Positions 35,535 through 41,441 of a DNA stretch of 64,000 bases are shown here, in pieces. The first letter of the stretch is position 1; every line of letters starts with the position of its first letter. Source of the DNA: Sediminibacterium sp. Gen4 (GTDB taxonomy: Bacteria; Bacteroidota; Bacteroidia; Chitinophagales; Chitinophagaceae); the NCBI GenBank assembly GCA_013391385.1, contig JACBFI010000001.1:95961-159960 (forward strand), read 5' to 3'. The position numbers were made by a program, and so were the translations under genes. The notes under the pieces are model-generated. The model searched no databases. It was given only the letters and a program-made list of their open reading frames with translations, and was not told the DNA's origin.

Positions 35535-36488
35535 TTATGCAGCGGTTTCAGTTTGCTTCAGAACATGAATAGCAATACCTTTTTGCTGATCAGGCTCCTC
35601 TGGGTATTCATTTACTTGCAAGCGAATTCTTTGTGTGATATCATTCAAGGCTGTTATTCTTTGTACAGTGTATGGGATCGTATCCAACCCCGAAACAAAT
35701 TTTAAGATATAGTTATAGATACCAATGATATTACCCGCTAATACAGTAGTACCCGCTACCTGATTGGTGATCAAAAGTGATAATGCAATCACTACCATTA
35801 CCATCAATTCCATCATTCCAAAATTCCATGCTTCCTGATCACTGATTCGTATTTGCCATTTACGAAGATTATTGAAATGTTTGCGAATAGCATTGGAATC
35901 ACCGGAAGAAATAACATTGACTTGTTTTTCTAACTCGTCATTCTTCAGTTGCGTCAAACGTTTCATTTTCTTGCCATAAAAATAACTGATGGCCATAACA
36001 GGCAAGAGTATAGCGAGACAAAGCAGTACAACTGAGGATTGATAAAAGAATAGTAAGATCATAGACCCCAGAATATTATAGACTGCCTCAATGATATATA
36101 CCAGATCGAATTCCAGAAAATCTACAAACTCTCTGGCAAGCGTTGAGTGAGCACTTAGTTTAGAAACTTCTTTGGCTTTTATTTTTCGCGAAAGAAAATG
36201 AGTCACTAGTGAAGTATAAATAGCAGAATAGGTACGGGTATCATAACGATGTCGAATAGTACCAATTACCAACCATACAAAATGTACCAATGACAATAAT
36301 ATCAATCCTCTGTAGGAATGTTCCATCAAATCATTGATCGCCATTCCCAGAAAAAAAGGACGTAATAAAGCCCCTGTCATTTCCAATGAAAACAACACAT
36401 AGGTAATGCCTAATCTCATTTTGTGCGCTTGCACCAACTTACCCAAAACATTCATTCTAATCATACACATCAGTTCATTACAATACAT
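35535..36488 (-). CDS. ABC-type six-helix membrane domain protein without ATPase
   Basis: The product has up to 317 residues; an internal Met12 (36455) is a plausible alternative start. It has six hydrophobic helices in the arrangement of an ABC exporter membrane domain (ABC_membrane_6 type): for example [56 protein letters not shown] and [19 protein letters not shown]. The coupling-helix region [20 protein letters not shown] is recognisable. There is no Walker A or ABC signature anywhere in it, and no ATPase gene is adjacent. It is the last gene of the SET/ATP-grasp run, 74 bp after the fusion gene. Confidence 0.75.
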
Positions 36489-36562
36489 TCACAATCGCCT
36501 GTATCAGACCATTGAAGCAAAAAAATTGGGTTAGTAGTTGGACAATTGAACCAGCGCTTCGT

Positions 36563-38029
36563 TTAAGAACGACGAGTACTTTCTCTTTGTGTTATGGTAT
36601 TACTCGTTGTGCCGGTGATCCGTTTTCTGCAGTTGGTGGAACCGCATTGGCATTCAAATGGCTCCATGTGTTCATCCAAGAATGTGGCGTAATCGAGGGT
36701 TAGTTCTTCACCTTTTTCTATGTGTCGGATGGCGATGACATTCAAGCCATCATAAGCAGTATTTGGTTGGCAACTGTGGTTTTGCGGAGCCCATGCTGCC
36801 GGATCATTATCCCAGAGCAAAAATACTTCATTGCTTACCGGATAAGCATAGCGACGAAAAATTTCTTTTTCAACATCATTCCAATGTGTTTCTACATGAC
36901 GTTTTGTGACCATGCGTTGAGACTGTTCTTCGCCCATGAAAATCACTTCATTACACATGATAGATCGTGTTGCATAAATACCGAAACCGGACAATGCATT
37001 TCCTTTGATCTGATATTTTTTCTGCATGCGTAAGTGACGTGAAATTCCTTCTTCAATCATTTTTTTTAAAAATCCGGCCTGACCAATTCCATCATATTGT
37101 AAAATATAATCTGCCGATCCTTCATATCCATCTGTATAAAAAACAGAACAGGTAAAATTGATTTCCAGGAAATACAACTGCTGATTTGCATCCATTCTAA
37201 AATCCAATCTCGCATAGCCCACGCCATTGAACCCTTTGAAGATCTTAATAGCAGCTTCTTTTAACGCATCACTGATTCTAGTATCCTTACAAGGAATATT
37301 GGCAGAAGGATGTAAGGCTGATGTTTTTAATGCATAGGTCTTGAATTGATACCCTTCCGGAAAAATAAATTCAACCGGTTGAAAAGCCGTAGCGGTTTTT
37401 CCATTGGCATCAGCCATCACTAAAACCGTGAACTCTCTTCCTTCAATATATTGTTCGATCAATAACTGTGGATATTCCGGCAATAATAGTTGTACCTGTT
37501 GCAACAACTCTTCTCTATTGTGTACCAGGGAATGTTCATCAATGCCAAGACTGTCTCCCGCTTTAGAAGGTTTCACAAACAATGGAAAAGGAATATCAAT
37601 CGTATTCAAATCATTTAAATCATTCACCAGTGCATAAGCCGGTGTAGCAACGCCCTCGCAATAAGCCAAATACTTCATGATCTCTTTGGATGGATCATAC
37701 AATTTGGTATTAGGTCCTGTGTATGGTAGTCCTAATAACTCCAAAGTATAGATTACGTCAATGGAAGGAACTTCCCATTCCAGATAGCCTTCACAAAGGT
37801 TGATGAATACATCATAATTTTTGTATTGTAACGCTTTCAGCTGTTTGTAGGTAGTGAGTTTATTGAGAAATATATGATCTACCTCTGCACCGGGGAGTAA
37901 CGAAGAAAGATCTCTTGGCGGATCATAATTTTTATAATCAACATTGGTAGTGCTGTAATCGGGTTGCAGTACACAAATTTTTTTGCCTTTTGCCCAGTTG
38001 TTGTTTGCTGTATCTGCTGTTGTTTTCAC
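36563..38029 (-). CDS. ATP-grasp ligase fused to a SET domain
   Basis: The product has 488 residues. Residues 15-325 form a D-Ala-D-Ala-ligase-like ATP-grasp: K153 in PLFVKPSKAGDSLGI, IEQYIEGREF at 191, and the metal site ARLDFRMD with FLEIN (E289, N291). Residues 335-470 are a SET domain: SGFGIYA at 347, NHSCQPN at 417, GEELTLDY at 440 and a post-SET CQCGSTNCRK zinc cluster at 460. ATP-grasp enzymes join a carboxylate to an amine or thiol, and SET domains methylate lysine side chains or other amines using SAM. The fusion implies that both acts target one product. It sits 10 bp after the stand-alone ATP-grasp gene. Confidence 0.88.
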   Translation of the reverse strand: MKTTADTANNNWAKGKKICVLQPDYSTTNVDYKNYDPPRDLSSLLPGAEVDHIFLNKLTTYKQLKALQYKNYDVFINLCEGYLEWEVPSIDVIYTLELLGLPYTGPNTKLYDPSKEIMKYLAYCEGVATPAYALVNDLNDLNTIDIPFPLFVKPSKAGDSLGIDEHSLVHNREELLQQVQLLLPEYPQLLIEQYIEGREFTVLVMADANGKTATAFQPVEFIFPEGYQFKTYALKTSALHPSANIPCKDTRISDALKEAAIKIFKGFNGVGYARLDFRMDANQQLYFLEINFTCSVFYTDGYEGSADYILQYDGIGQAGFLKKMIEEGISRHLRMQKKYQIKGNALSGFGIYATRSIMCNEVIFMGEEQSQRMVTKRHVETHWNDVEKEIFRRYAYPVSNEVFLLWDNDPAAWAPQNHSCQPNTAYDGLNVIAIRHIEKGEELTLDYATFLDEHMEPFECQCGSTNCRKRITGTTSNTITQRESTRRS

Positions 38030-38039
38030 GAAACTTTAT

Positions 38040-39194
38040 TTAATATCCTGCATACACTGGAGCCATTTGGTATTTCTCCGTTTGTTTTAATTGATAACGT
38101 TTCACCGCTTCTGTAAGAATGTTTTGTATCAGCGTAGTAAAACTTTCTTCATTCACTTTTAAGATGGCACCGATAGAGGTGTAATCTTCATCCTCACTCA
38201 ATCCGCATTGCGCATTCACTTCGAGTACATACAATTCTCCGGTATTAGCATCTTGTCGGATATCCACTCTTGTATAACCCGTTCCTTTTACTGACAGGAA
38301 TGCAGCCAGACTCAGTGCTTTTATTTGGTCTTGAAGTGATGTAGGCGCTTTTTGGTATTCATAAAAATTTTCATCGGAAGGCATGGGTGTTTCTTCTTCA
38401 TAGATCTCCCATAAACGATCGAATGACAGGAATTTTTCTTTTTCCGGAAGAGAAGGATGAAATACTCTTTCCACTGCATCATACACCCTGCAGTGATCCG
38501 GTTCATACCAAGAACCTACAATCATGGTTGTGAATTCGGGACCCTGAATAAATTGTTCTGCTATGATTCCATCAGCTGCCAAATTCCATCCACGGTAGCC
38601 TTTGAACATTTGCATCACTTGCTCTTTCAGCTCTTGTTCATTACTCACCACATTGCGAATACCCACGCCCATGCTACCACCGGAAACAGCAGGTTTTACA
38701 ATTAAGGGAGACCCCAATGCTTCCACTACTTGTTTGGTGGCATCTTCCGGTAACAAAATGGTTTTCCATGCTGCGGTAGCAACGCCTGCTGCATCAAATG
38801 CTTTTTTCATTGGGATTTTAGAAGTGGTGATCCGATAAAAATATTCATCTGCACCTGTATAGATCAAACCCGAGGATGCCAACAACTGTACCACTGAAAT
38901 ACCCGGTGTTCCATTGATTTCATCACCATCACAAAGATTGAGTACAATAGGAAAACTTTTTCCGTTTTGTTTTTCATCCTGAATAGTTGCGATGATGGTT
39001 GCATAATCTTCCATTGTTACCGGCTGCCATTGCCAATCCATATTCAATGCAGCAAAAACACGTGTATACTCACCAATACTCTGTGAAAAATCGTAGTAAT
39101 AATCAATGTTTGGATCATTTGTTACCAAAGAAGGAGCCAGTACCCAAATCTTTAAACGACTGTATTCTTCTGCAGTTAATAAATTCATCAACAT
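38040..39194 (-). CDS. ATP-grasp ligase (D-Ala-D-Ala ligase-like)
   Basis: The 384-residue cytoplasmic enzyme has a pre-ATP-grasp domain (1-115), then K167 in SPLIVKPAVSGGSMGVG, E213 in IIAEQFIQGPEF, and the metal-binding TRVDIRQD (D311) and LEVNAQCGLSEDED (E325, N327). All key residues are present. It is longer than D-alanine ligase (about 310-350) and carries an insert at 240-285. It is too diverged to be the cell-wall Ddl enzyme. It is 7 bp after the small SET gene and 10 bp before the ATP-grasp-SET fusion, so it works in the same pathway. The substrate is unknown. Confidence 0.88.
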   Translation of the reverse strand: MLMNLLTAEEYSRLKIWVLAPSLVTNDPNIDYYYDFSQSIGEYTRVFAALNMDWQWQPVTMEDYATIIATIQDEKQNGKSFPIVLNLCDGDEINGTPGISVVQLLASSGLIYTGADEYFYRITTSKIPMKKAFDAAGVATAAWKTILLPEDATKQVVEALGSPLIVKPAVSGGSMGVGIRNVVSNEQELKEQVMQMFKGYRGWNLAADGIIAEQFIQGPEFTTMIVGSWYEPDHCRVYDAVERVFHPSLPEKEKFLSFDRLWEIYEEETPMPSDENFYEYQKAPTSLQDQIKALSLAAFLSVKGTGYTRVDIRQDANTGELYVLEVNAQCGLSEDEDYTSIGAILKVNEESFTTLIQNILTEAVKRYQLKQTEKYQMAPVYAGY

Positions 39195-39201
39195 GTAAAT
39201 C

Positions 39202-39696
39202 TTATCTGTTTTTCAATTGCAGGTGTATAAATGAATTCAAACGATAGGCTTGCAAAATTTCTTCTCTCAATGCAGCAGCACCTTCAATAATACCTAAACA
39301 ATTTTTAGCGCCACAAGTACAGTTAAATGCACTCGCCATCTTCCATTCTGTAGAGGGATAAAAAAATACCATTTCATCATCCGGTTGAACTGCCTTCAAC
39401 GCTATCAATTGTAAATTATCTGTATCAAAGAATACATTGGGATCACAACTATGATTGGTATACTGCAAACATTCTGGTGATAATAGGATGTGTTTTTTCA
39501 AACCCAATTGTAAAGTTTTATAACTAGGCGTATCTACAATTTCAGCAGCACCGAATTCACAAATGATTTCTCCCTGATCAAAAAAAGCAGTGGCGTGTAA
39601 AGAAAATTGTCCAGTTGCGGGGTTTCTAACTACCCTTGCAAAATCTACCCGATCATTCTTGAGCGGTTCGGGAATCACGAGTGGGAGTGGTATCAT
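39202..39696 (-). CDS. Stand-alone SET-domain methyltransferase
   Basis: The 164-residue protein is one SET domain: ATGQFSLHATAFFDQGEII at the start, TNHSCDPNVFF (the SAM/pseudoknot motif), DDEMVFFYPSTEW in place of the usual GEELTxDY, and a post-SET cluster CTCGAKNCLG. The conserved Asn-His-Ser-Cys and Tyr are present. It is first in the four-gene minus-strand run. SET proteins in bacteria are uncommon outside chlamydiae and a few phyla; a protein or peptide lysine target is inferred. Confidence 0.87.
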   Translation of the reverse strand: MIPLPLVIPEPLKNDRVDFARVVRNPATGQFSLHATAFFDQGEIICEFGAAEIVDTPSYKTLQLGLKKHILLSPECLQYTNHSCDPNVFFDTDNLQLIALKAVQPDDEMVFFYPSTEWKMASAFNCTCGAKNCLGIIEGAAALREEILQAYRLNSFIHLQLKNR

Positions 39697-39852
39697 GCCG
39701 GGTTTATCGTTGGTTGCTTAAAGTTCTCCAATAGAACAGTATACCTGTATGAATTACAACGTTTATTAGTCCACATTTTGAATATGAATTATCAACAATG
39801 AACAGCTTGTTACAGGATTTGATAACTTGCCGGTAAAGAATCACTGACCATT

Positions 39853-40326
39853 ATGCCACAACATACCCCGGAACAAGCATTTGCTGCATTGAACCTGAGC
39901 TTACCTCCCGCTCCTGAACCGCTCGGCGTGTATAAGCCTTGCTTAGTAGATGGCGAGTACCTGTATTTATCCGGACACGGTACTTTACAAAATGATGGTA
40001 GCTGGATTGTAGGTATTGTTGGATTGGACATGGACAAAGAAGCGGCTAAACTGGCGGCCCGACAAGTAGGATTGGCCATGATTGCCACCATTAAAAAAAA
40101 CATAGGGAGTCTTGATAAAATCAAGCGTGTGATCAAAGTTTTAGGGATGGTTAATGCTGTTCAGGGTTTTGCAGATCATCCTTTTGTGATCAATGGTTGT
40201 AGTGAATTGTTTGCTGCGATCTGGGGACCCGATAATGGTATTGGAGTGAGAAGTGCCGTAGGCATGAGCTCCTTACCTGGAAATATTCCTGTTGAAATTG
40301 AAGCCATTTTTGAACTACATGTATGA
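39853..40326 (+). CDS. RidA (YjgF/YER057c) family enamine/imine deaminase-like protein
   Basis: The 157-residue protein fits the longer RidA-like subgroup: LYLSGHGTLQNDGSWIVGIV, AARQVGLAMIATIKKNIGSL, and the late block FVINGCSELFAAIWGPDNGI followed by VRSAVGMSSLPGNIPVEIEA, where the family Arg sits. RidA hydrolyses reactive 2-aminoacrylate-type enamines released by PLP enzymes. Here its stop overlaps by 4 bp the start of a PLP enzyme of the D-serine dehydratase/D-threonine aldolase fold, a very fitting partner. It is divergent from the SET/ATP-grasp genes (156-bp gap). Confidence 0.93.
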   Translation: MPQHTPEQAFAALNLSLPPAPEPLGVYKPCLVDGEYLYLSGHGTLQNDGSWIVGIVGLDMDKEAAKLAARQVGLAMIATIKKNIGSLDKIKRVIKVLGMVNAVQGFADHPFVINGCSELFAAIWGPDNGIGVRSAVGMSSLPGNIPVEIEAIFELHV

Positions 40327-41441
40327 ACAATCATCAAGATACCTGGTATACCATAACTGATCCATCTGTATTGGATACACCCGCTTTATTGGTTTATCCT
40401 GAACGGGTACAATACAATATTGATGCGGCTATTCGTTTGGTAGGCAACCCTTCAAGACTCAGACCACATATCAAAACACATAAAACAAAAGAAGTTACTG
40501 AGTTATTGATGCGTTCAGGAGTAGAACAATTCAAATGTGCTACCATTGCTGAAGCAGAGTTATTGGGAATCTGTAAAGCAAGAGATGTGTTACTGGCATA
40601 CCAACCTGTTGGACCTAAGTTGAAACGTTTTCTTTCACTCATCGCACATTATCCTGATACACAGTATGCATGTTTGACCGATACGATTGCTGCTGCACAA
40701 GAAATAGCACTTGCTGCCCAAGAAGCGAATATTGTTCTTACTGTTTATATCGATCTGAATGTGGGAATGAACAGAACCGGTATTGCACCGGAAGTTGCAT
40801 TGAGTCTAGTTGATTTTTGTCTACAACAATCATCTATTCAACTTGCCGGATTGCATGCTTATGATGGACATATCCGTCATCCTGACCCCATAGAAAGAAA
40901 ACAAATTTGTGATGCTGCATTTGCTAGAACAAAGGCTTTACAAAAAAAGATACAAGACCAATATGGCATCACACTATCTATCATTGCCGGCGGTAGTCCC
41001 AGTTTCCCCATTCATGCACAAAGAGAAAACATGGTTTGCAGTCCCGGTACATTTGTGTATTGGGATCATGGTTATGCTTCTCTGTTTCCCGAACAGCCTT
41101 TTATTCCTGCAGCATTGGTTTTAACAAGAATCATTTCTTTACCTGCTCCCGGAATGATCTGTACAGATCTTGGACATAAATCCATTGCGGCTGAAAACCC
41201 ATTGGAGAAAAGAGTCGTTTTTTTAAATGCTCCGGAATTAAAAGCTGTTTCACAAAGTGAGGAACATTTGGTGTTGGCAGCACCGGAAAATCATACTTAC
41301 CGACCCGGTGATATTTTATATGGATTACCGATGCATATTTGTCCAACCTGTGCTTTATATGAAAGAGCGATCACAATTATCGATCATCAAAAAGCCGGGG
41401 AATGGATGATTACTGCACGCGATAGAAAAATTCAATACTGA
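40323..41441 (+). CDS. PLP enzyme of the D-threonine aldolase/D-serine dehydratase family
   Basis: The 372-residue protein is a fold-type III PLP enzyme. RPHIKTHKTKEV at 47-58 holds the PLP lysine. VYIDLNVGMNRTGIAP and LAGLHAYDGHIRHPDP line the barrel, and GGSPSFP binds phosphate. The C-terminal metal site is MHICPTC, with H338 and C340. A His-x-Cys pair is that of zinc D-serine dehydratase (DSD1 type), whereas D-threonine aldolases have His-x-Asp. Dehydratase chemistry is therefore favoured and would make aminoacrylate for the overlapping RidA. The amino acid substrate is not certain. Confidence 0.88.
   Translation: MNNHQDTWYTITDPSVLDTPALLVYPERVQYNIDAAIRLVGNPSRLRPHIKTHKTKEVTELLMRSGVEQFKCATIAEAELLGICKARDVLLAYQPVGPKLKRFLSLIAHYPDTQYACLTDTIAAAQEIALAAQEANIVLTVYIDLNVGMNRTGIAPEVALSLVDFCLQQSSIQLAGLHAYDGHIRHPDPIERKQICDAAFARTKALQKKIQDQYGITLSIIAGGSPSFPIHAQRENMVCSPGTFVYWDHGYASLFPEQPFIPAALVLTRIISLPAPGMICTDLGHKSIAAENPLEKRVVFLNAPELKAVSQSEEHLVLAAPENHTYRPGDILYGLPMHICPTCALYERAITIIDHQKAGEWMITARDRKIQY

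Follow-up and report, generated by a model that had tools for sequence, protein, structure and literature searches.

Background

The locus described here raises the question of why a stand-alone SET protein (SET1), an ATP-grasp ligase (G1), an ATP-grasp-SET fusion (GS) and a membrane protein of the ATP-binding cassette (ABC) type should be encoded one after the other in a bacterial genome. The genes lie on the minus strand of a stretch of 64,000 nucleotides (hereafter the window) from Sediminibacterium sp. Gen4, contig JACBFI010000001.1, and face a RidA gene and a gene for a pyridoxal phosphate (PLP) enzyme. An initial annotation had joined all six in one pathway for the assembly and N-methylation of an amino-acid-derived compound. 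Our analysis shows that the four minus-strand genes form a real and conserved unit, whose order and co-occurrence recur over many genera beyond chance, and that the RidA/PLP pair is not part of it. On balance we favour the view that this operon is dedicated to the biosynthesis of a small methylated amino-acid compound, which is possibly exported.

The genes of the region and their products are:

35535-36488, minus strand: membrane protein of the ABC_membrane_3 family (ABC), 317 aa, no nucleotide-binding domain
36563-38029, minus strand: ATP-grasp-SET fusion (GS), 488 aa, GTG start; Ddl-fold ligase at about residues 14-341, SET domain with post-SET cysteines at about 339-475
38040-39194, minus strand: ATP-grasp ligase (G1), 384 aa, Ddl fold
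39202-39696, minus strand: stand-alone SET protein (SET1), 164 aa, BurB-like
39853-40326, plus strand: RidA-family protein (PF14588), outside the conserved unit
40323-41441, plus strand: PLP enzyme resembling D-serine dehydratase and D-threonine aldolase (DSD), with Ala_racemase_N and D-ser_dehydrat domains, outside the conserved unit

The positions in the initial annotation were all confirmed, including the tight minus-strand order with gaps of 7 bp (SET1/G1) and 10 bp (G1/GS), the 156 bp between the starts of SET1 and RidA and the 4 bp overlap of the RidA and PLP open reading frames (ORFs); GS and the membrane protein gene are 74 bp apart. Its family assignments hold as well, since every protein matches Pfam above the cut-off. 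In detail, PF07478 matches both ATP-grasp proteins (77.8 and 65.0 bits, cut-off 24), PF00856 the SET domains of the fusion (40.4 bits) and of SET1 (32.3 bits, cut-off 22.4), PF13748 the membrane protein (147.4 bits, cut-off 27) and PF14588 the RidA-family protein (42.2 bits, cut-off 35), while the PLP enzyme is matched by PF01168 (60.6 bits, cut-off 24.1) and PF14031 (61.2 bits, cut-off 22). A promoter and terminator scan of the region gave 14 promoter-like sites against 20.4 expected and was not used for any inference.

Conservation of the unit in Chitinophagaceae

A sample of 244 genomes of the family was searched with GS (cut-off E 1e-20), G1 (E 1e-30), SET1 (E 1e-5), the membrane protein (E 1e-25) and the PLP enzyme (E 1e-40). 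The fusion is present in 74 of these genomes, from 37 of 101 genera, and G1 in 75, likewise from 37 of 101 genera. All 74 genomes with GS carry G1, and in the sole genome with G1 only (G133) this gene sits at a contig edge. The expectation that the SET-ATP-grasp order would be conserved in Chitinophagaceae is thus borne out for much of the family, with near-perfect co-occurrence. SET1 matches were obtained in 91 genomes, 72 of them strong (E 3.8e-32 or better); the weaker ones, among those listed, come from the SET half of GS or from other SET paralogues. Strong SET1 and GS occur together in 70 genomes, GS alone in four (G139, G156, G197, G205) and SET1 alone in two (G133, G135). Homologues of the membrane protein were found in 31 of the 244 genomes, every one with GS or G1 (30 of the 74 GS genomes versus 1 of the 170 others). 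As kin genomes are not independent, Fisher values overstate such associations, and counting genera is the safer guide.

Gene order was read from 29 loci (L005-L033) of the best-scoring genomes among the 74, own genome excluded, and from 32 named-contig loci (L034-L065; L066, a fragment only, was excluded); the two sets may share species. In the first set 28 of 29 loci have G1 immediately upstream of GS and on its strand, 25 of the 28 with room for it have SET1 upstream of G1, and 13 of 28 have the membrane protein gene directly downstream. The second set gave 31 of 31, 21 of 27 and 14 of 26, respectively. Rearrangements do occur: L088 reads G1-GS-ABC-SET1, and L094 has an opposite-strand gene between G1 and GS. 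In G021 a distance of 1.7 Mb separates SET1 from GS, in six draft genomes SET1 is on a separate contig (a contig break being possible in some), and in G448, from another family, SET1 and G1 overlap by 4 bp on one contig with GS on another. That SET1, G1 and GS keep to the same genomes even when they are apart makes it likelier that they work together.

One clade of the family (L057-L059, L064) has G1 and GS almost abutting, no SET1 nearby and a gene for a DUF1295 membrane protein upstream of G1. Where the contig reaches, an amino-acid permease gene lies ahead of the latter, and in L058 and L059 the genes are followed by one for an M28 peptidase.

The RidA/PLP pair

That the RidA and PLP genes travel with the operon, as had been proposed, did not hold. 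Homologues of the PLP gene occur in 98 of the 244 genomes, 31 with the fusion and 67 without it, so that the two occur independently of each other (Fisher p 0.78). Within those 31 the two genes are at most 10 kb apart in the own genome only; they are on different contigs in 26 and on one contig at a distance of 1.1-3.6 Mb in four (G004, G160, G213, G216). Of the 23 named-contig loci whose upstream part extends for 4 kb or more, two (L034, L035) had a RidA or PLP gene near the unit, and adjacency to the SET operon was seen in this strain and its close kin only. The genus itself includes one genome with the core whose PLP gene lies 2.3 Mb off (G216) and two that have the PLP gene but lack the core (G087, G164). 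The pair was therefore rejected as a member of the pathway, the PLP gene having been judged genome-wide and RidA at the loci. In 10 of 19 further loci RidA is next to the PLP gene, so that they constitute a two-gene unit of their own, which recurs in the family and looks to be an ordinary D-amino-acid dehydratase or aldolase accompanied by its enamine deaminase.

Occurrence beyond the family

A further search covered 395 genomes of the phylum (GS, E 1e-28) and a collection of 72,556 plasmid records. GS was found in 17 of the phylum genomes, five of the own family and twelve in families f18, f24, f28 and f54. The f18 genus belongs to the green sulfur bacteria, as concluded from the FMO protein, which was found in all five searched genomes of its class (four of the f18 genus, one of f16); within this class GS is present in 9 of 98 genomes, all of one genus. 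Five of these nine loci (L083-L087) show the order SET1, GS, a full ABC exporter and a short SET protein of 118-120 aa, the exporters being 580-694 aa long with both ABC domains (PF00664 and PF00005). No plasmid record had one place covering 80% of the fusion. The f24 fusion locus (L080, 5135-12099) has genes for an N-formylglutamate amidohydrolase-like protein, a MATCAP/DUF1704 protein and a gamma-glutamyltranspeptidase alongside.

The SET proteins

SET1 carries the motifs TLQ...HI, YPSTE and NHSCDPN and C-x-C-G...C cysteines, and the solved protein nearest to it is BurB from Burkholderia thailandensis (PDB 9l4t, 9l4v), the single-sequence match spanning 93 of 164 residues. BurB is a SET-domain enzyme which S-methylates free methionine and holds it mostly by main-chain contacts (PMC12542666). 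It was reported in 2020 as an exception, in that the natural-product methyltransferases found earlier came only from classes I and III (PMC7496086).

An alignment gave the motifs TLQ...H[ILA] and YxxTE each in 13 of 14 rows of SET1 and plasmid relatives and in none of 23 other SET domains (13 fusion SETs, six paralogues, three small SETs and one from Leptospira); these motifs were picked after the alignment had been seen, and those of BurB itself were read from an alignment. In a tree with long branches, SET1, the plasmid relatives and the small green sulfur SETs are separated (90/78) from the fusion SET, the chromosomal paralogues and the Leptospira SET. The fusion SET, which was compared by sequence only because matches to the Ddl domain fill the fold list of the fusion, keeps NHSCxPN (with NHxC invariant), the DY tyrosine and the post-SET cysteines. 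Its nearest solved protein is also BurB, with a smaller margin (3.4e-11 versus 4.2e-9 for KMT2D), and for the short green sulfur SET there is almost no gap between BurB (2.6e-10) and a histone enzyme (1.3e-9). The hallmarks of protein-lysine SETs, i.e. NHSCxPN, the catalytic tyrosine and the post-SET zinc cysteines, are present in both the fusion SET and SET1; they cannot separate protein from small-molecule SETs, because BurB shows HSCxPN, the tyrosine and the cysteines too. Judged by motifs and tree, SET1 is classed as BurB-like and the fusion SET as another type, with its core residues kept.

Plasmid relatives of SET1 were found in 8 of the 72,556 records, four of them from Streptomyces. 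Five records, one of them from Streptomyces, were examined, with the SET gene at:

L123, 5917-6438
L124, 5866-6387
L133, 1124-1780
L134, 3974-4432
L102, 6707-7306

These genes have the BurB motifs in common and lie near amino-acid or metabolite genes, a pattern judged by eye with no control. The Eleftheria gene encodes a close BurB homologue (249 bits) and is adjoined by polyketide, aminotransferase and aldehyde dehydrogenase genes. In Sphingomonas the SET gene overlaps one annotated as diaminopimelate decarboxylase, the rest of the stretch being signalling genes; in Tabrizicola it heads GHMP kinase, PLP enzyme and DMT transporter genes; in Rhizobium it lies between asparagine-synthase-related and S-adenosylmethionine (SAM) decarboxylase genes; and in Streptomyces a SulP transporter gene adjoins it, and the opposite strand carries an aminotransferase gene at a distance of 1.9 kb. 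The Eleftheria terrae stretch (L123, 1-12402) perhaps encodes a bur-like sulfonium pathway outside Burkholderia. Four of the five plasmid genes are annotated as protein-lysine N-methyltransferases and the Rhizobium one as hypothetical; the former annotation may be wrong for the group.

The ATP-grasp ligases

G1 and GS have the Ddl fold, and their closest families are the D-Ala-D-Ala and Van-type ligases. Among the best-matching Ddl/Van models, however, GS reaches at best 87.3 bits against a cut-off of 245.65 (best 25 of 43 families) and G1 at best 87.9 bits against 243 (best 25 of 52), whereas a separate true Ddl elsewhere in the same genome passes four family cut-offs. The catalytic triad of Ddl is formed by E15, S150 and Y216 in E. 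coli DdlB. Its serine is kept here; the tyrosine is replaced by threonine in the fusion of the window and by tryptophan in G1 and in distant fusions, and opposite the glutamate the window proteins have asparagine or aspartate, in a loop that could not be aligned with certainty. The Lys-Tyr positions of Ddl correspond to Leu-Trp in G1. With scores far under the cut-offs, an incomplete triad and a genomic Ddl of its own, identity with the cell-wall enzyme, which would have spoken against the initial annotation, was rejected. Known Ddl-type ligases act on, and usually join, free amino acids.

A proposed function and its alternatives

The scheme that we favour builds on the conservation and co-occurrence of the genes, the identity of their domains, the kept core residues of the ATP-grasp and SET domains and the kinship of SET1 with BurB; substrates, step order, bond formed, methylated atom and transport are what we infer. 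SET1 would methylate a free amino acid or a ligase product with SAM as donor. G1 and the ligase half of GS would activate a carboxylate as acyl phosphate and couple it to an amine, forming one or two amide bonds, and the SET half of GS would methylate either the substrate or the product of the ligase half to which it is fused. The product might then be moved by the membrane protein here and by the full ABC exporter in green sulfur bacteria. Of the assembly and N-methylation suggested originally, it is plausible, SET1 being BurB-like, that a small amino-acid compound is methylated, but N-methylation in particular is not supported, as BurB methylates sulfur; the methylated atom could be N, the choice of the initial annotation, or S.

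Several observations weigh against this scheme. The fusion SET lacks both BurB-type motifs in all 13 sequences and groups, with the modest support given above, with chromosomal paralogues and the Leptospira SET, so that it may act on a protein. The small green sulfur SETs fall on the BurB side of the tree although they are without the BurB motifs, and since BurB was the sole bacterial SET recognised among the solved-structure matches, being nearest to it may be a matter of bacterial origin and not of substrate. The gene set is also not fixed: among the f18, f24 and f54 genomes searched, G1 matched nothing but the fusion, and in those of f24 and f54 the same is true for SET1. As for the suggested exporter, the membrane protein of the window has no ABC_tran match in Pfam and its homologues accompany the fusion in only 30 of 74 genomes, and it showed no meaningful BLAST similarity to the green sulfur exporter (E 1.2). 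Common descent of these two proteins was therefore rejected, a weak PF00664 match (E 6.4e-8) being all that links them.

The alternative of a protein-modification system, in which a protein would receive amino acids from the ATP-grasp enzymes and have its lysines methylated by the SET domains, would suit the best-known role of SET domains, the residues retained in the fusion SET and its closeness to KMT2D. A hint comes from the eukaryotic TTLL12, which combines SET-like and TTL-like (i.e. ATP-grasp-like) domains in one protein; it was reported to be inactive in vitro for both expected reactions (PMC3520985). We consider protein modification unlikely, however, given that the stand-alone SET is BurB-like and that no protein partner common to the lineages was seen, those neighbours which recur in part of the family being not beside the unit in green sulfur loci and resembling general synteny. 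The ligase halves, moreover, are of the Ddl type, and the known ligases of this type use free amino acids as substrates. The kinship with BurB, which converts methionine to S-methylmethionine and shares the TLQ and YxSTE motifs, would also accommodate a sulfonium route, in which SET1 would S-methylate methionine and the ligases would join the resulting S-methylmethionine to another amino acid, giving a stored or exported sulfonium dipeptide. Yet BurB binds methionine through main-chain atoms, so that common motifs do not fix the substrate, the match covers little more than half of SET1, and no downstream enzyme of the BurB route (decarboxylase, transaminase or dehydrogenase) was recognised by Pfam among the operon genes, which makes this route rather improbable. 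Fold and closest families might further suggest spare D-Ala-D-X ligases that alter peptidoglycan, with the SETs acting on the same precursors. With both ligases below every listed Ddl/Van cut-off, the triad tyrosine changed to threonine or tryptophan and a true Ddl elsewhere in the genome, such a cell-wall role seems very improbable.

Compared with these alternatives, we retain the biosynthesis of a small methylated amino-acid compound. More tentatively, and with some doubt, its product may represent a new metabolite class, made by Ddl-fold ligases that link amino acids and class V (SET) enzymes that methylate them, both activities being united in a single chain. In that case a considerable share of the stand-alone "protein-lysine" SET genes of bacteria might code for methyltransferases of amino acids. 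The operon would provide a tractable route of four genes towards a new methylated metabolite, recurring in Chitinophagaceae and some green sulfur bacteria.

Comparison with known systems

The component parts are of known kinds, and their combination and the fusion are new to us; no paper on a cluster of SET and Ddl-like ATP-grasp genes was found in the open-access (PMC) literature, in line with the initial annotation, to whose author no described pathway with such a set was known. Reviews of amidoligase and SET evolution by Aravind and colleagues may mention genes of this kind. TTLL12 resembles the fusion in having SET-type and ATP-grasp-like ligase domains in one chain, but its domain order is opposite and its ligase is of the TTL rather than the Ddl type, while the fusion has kept its core residues. 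Graspetide clusters, which encode ribosomally synthesised and post-translationally modified peptides (RiPPs), also pair ATP-grasp enzymes with a transporter. They differ in that the ligases here are Ddl-like and no precursor peptide was recognised in a single ad hoc scan, which covered ORFs of 22-90 codons on the same strand up to 1.2 kb away; its 12 largest clusters (no more than six members of each viewed) resemble shadows of neighbouring genes.

BacD is likewise an ATP-grasp amino-acid ligase, with weak similarity only (E 5e-5), and we know of no bac cluster with a SET gene. Similarly weak is the similarity to the amino-acid ligase encoded on Thioflavicoccus pTHIMO01, an ATP-grasp protein which belongs to a metabolite-type gene group beside diaminopropionate and ornithine-cyclodeaminase-like genes, in a stretch with no SET gene. 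From the Ddl and Van ligases G1 and GS are set apart by their low scores, the changed catalytic tyrosine, the lack of a glutamate aligned with the N-terminal one, an invariant cysteine after E-x-N and the SET fusion.

The closest parallel is BurB, which like SET1 is a small stand-alone SET protein (about 165-172 aa) with TLQ...H[IL], YxSTE and C-x-C-G...C motifs. BurB opens the dimethylsulfoniopropionate (DMSP)/malleicyprol route together with a decarboxylase, a transaminase and a dehydrogenase, whereas the partners of SET1 are ATP-grasp ligases and a fused second SET domain. SET enzymes are mostly read as protein methyltransferases. By linking a BurB-like SET, and a second SET fused to an amino-acid ligase, with amide-bond chemistry, the operon would extend the exception of BurB towards an enzyme class.

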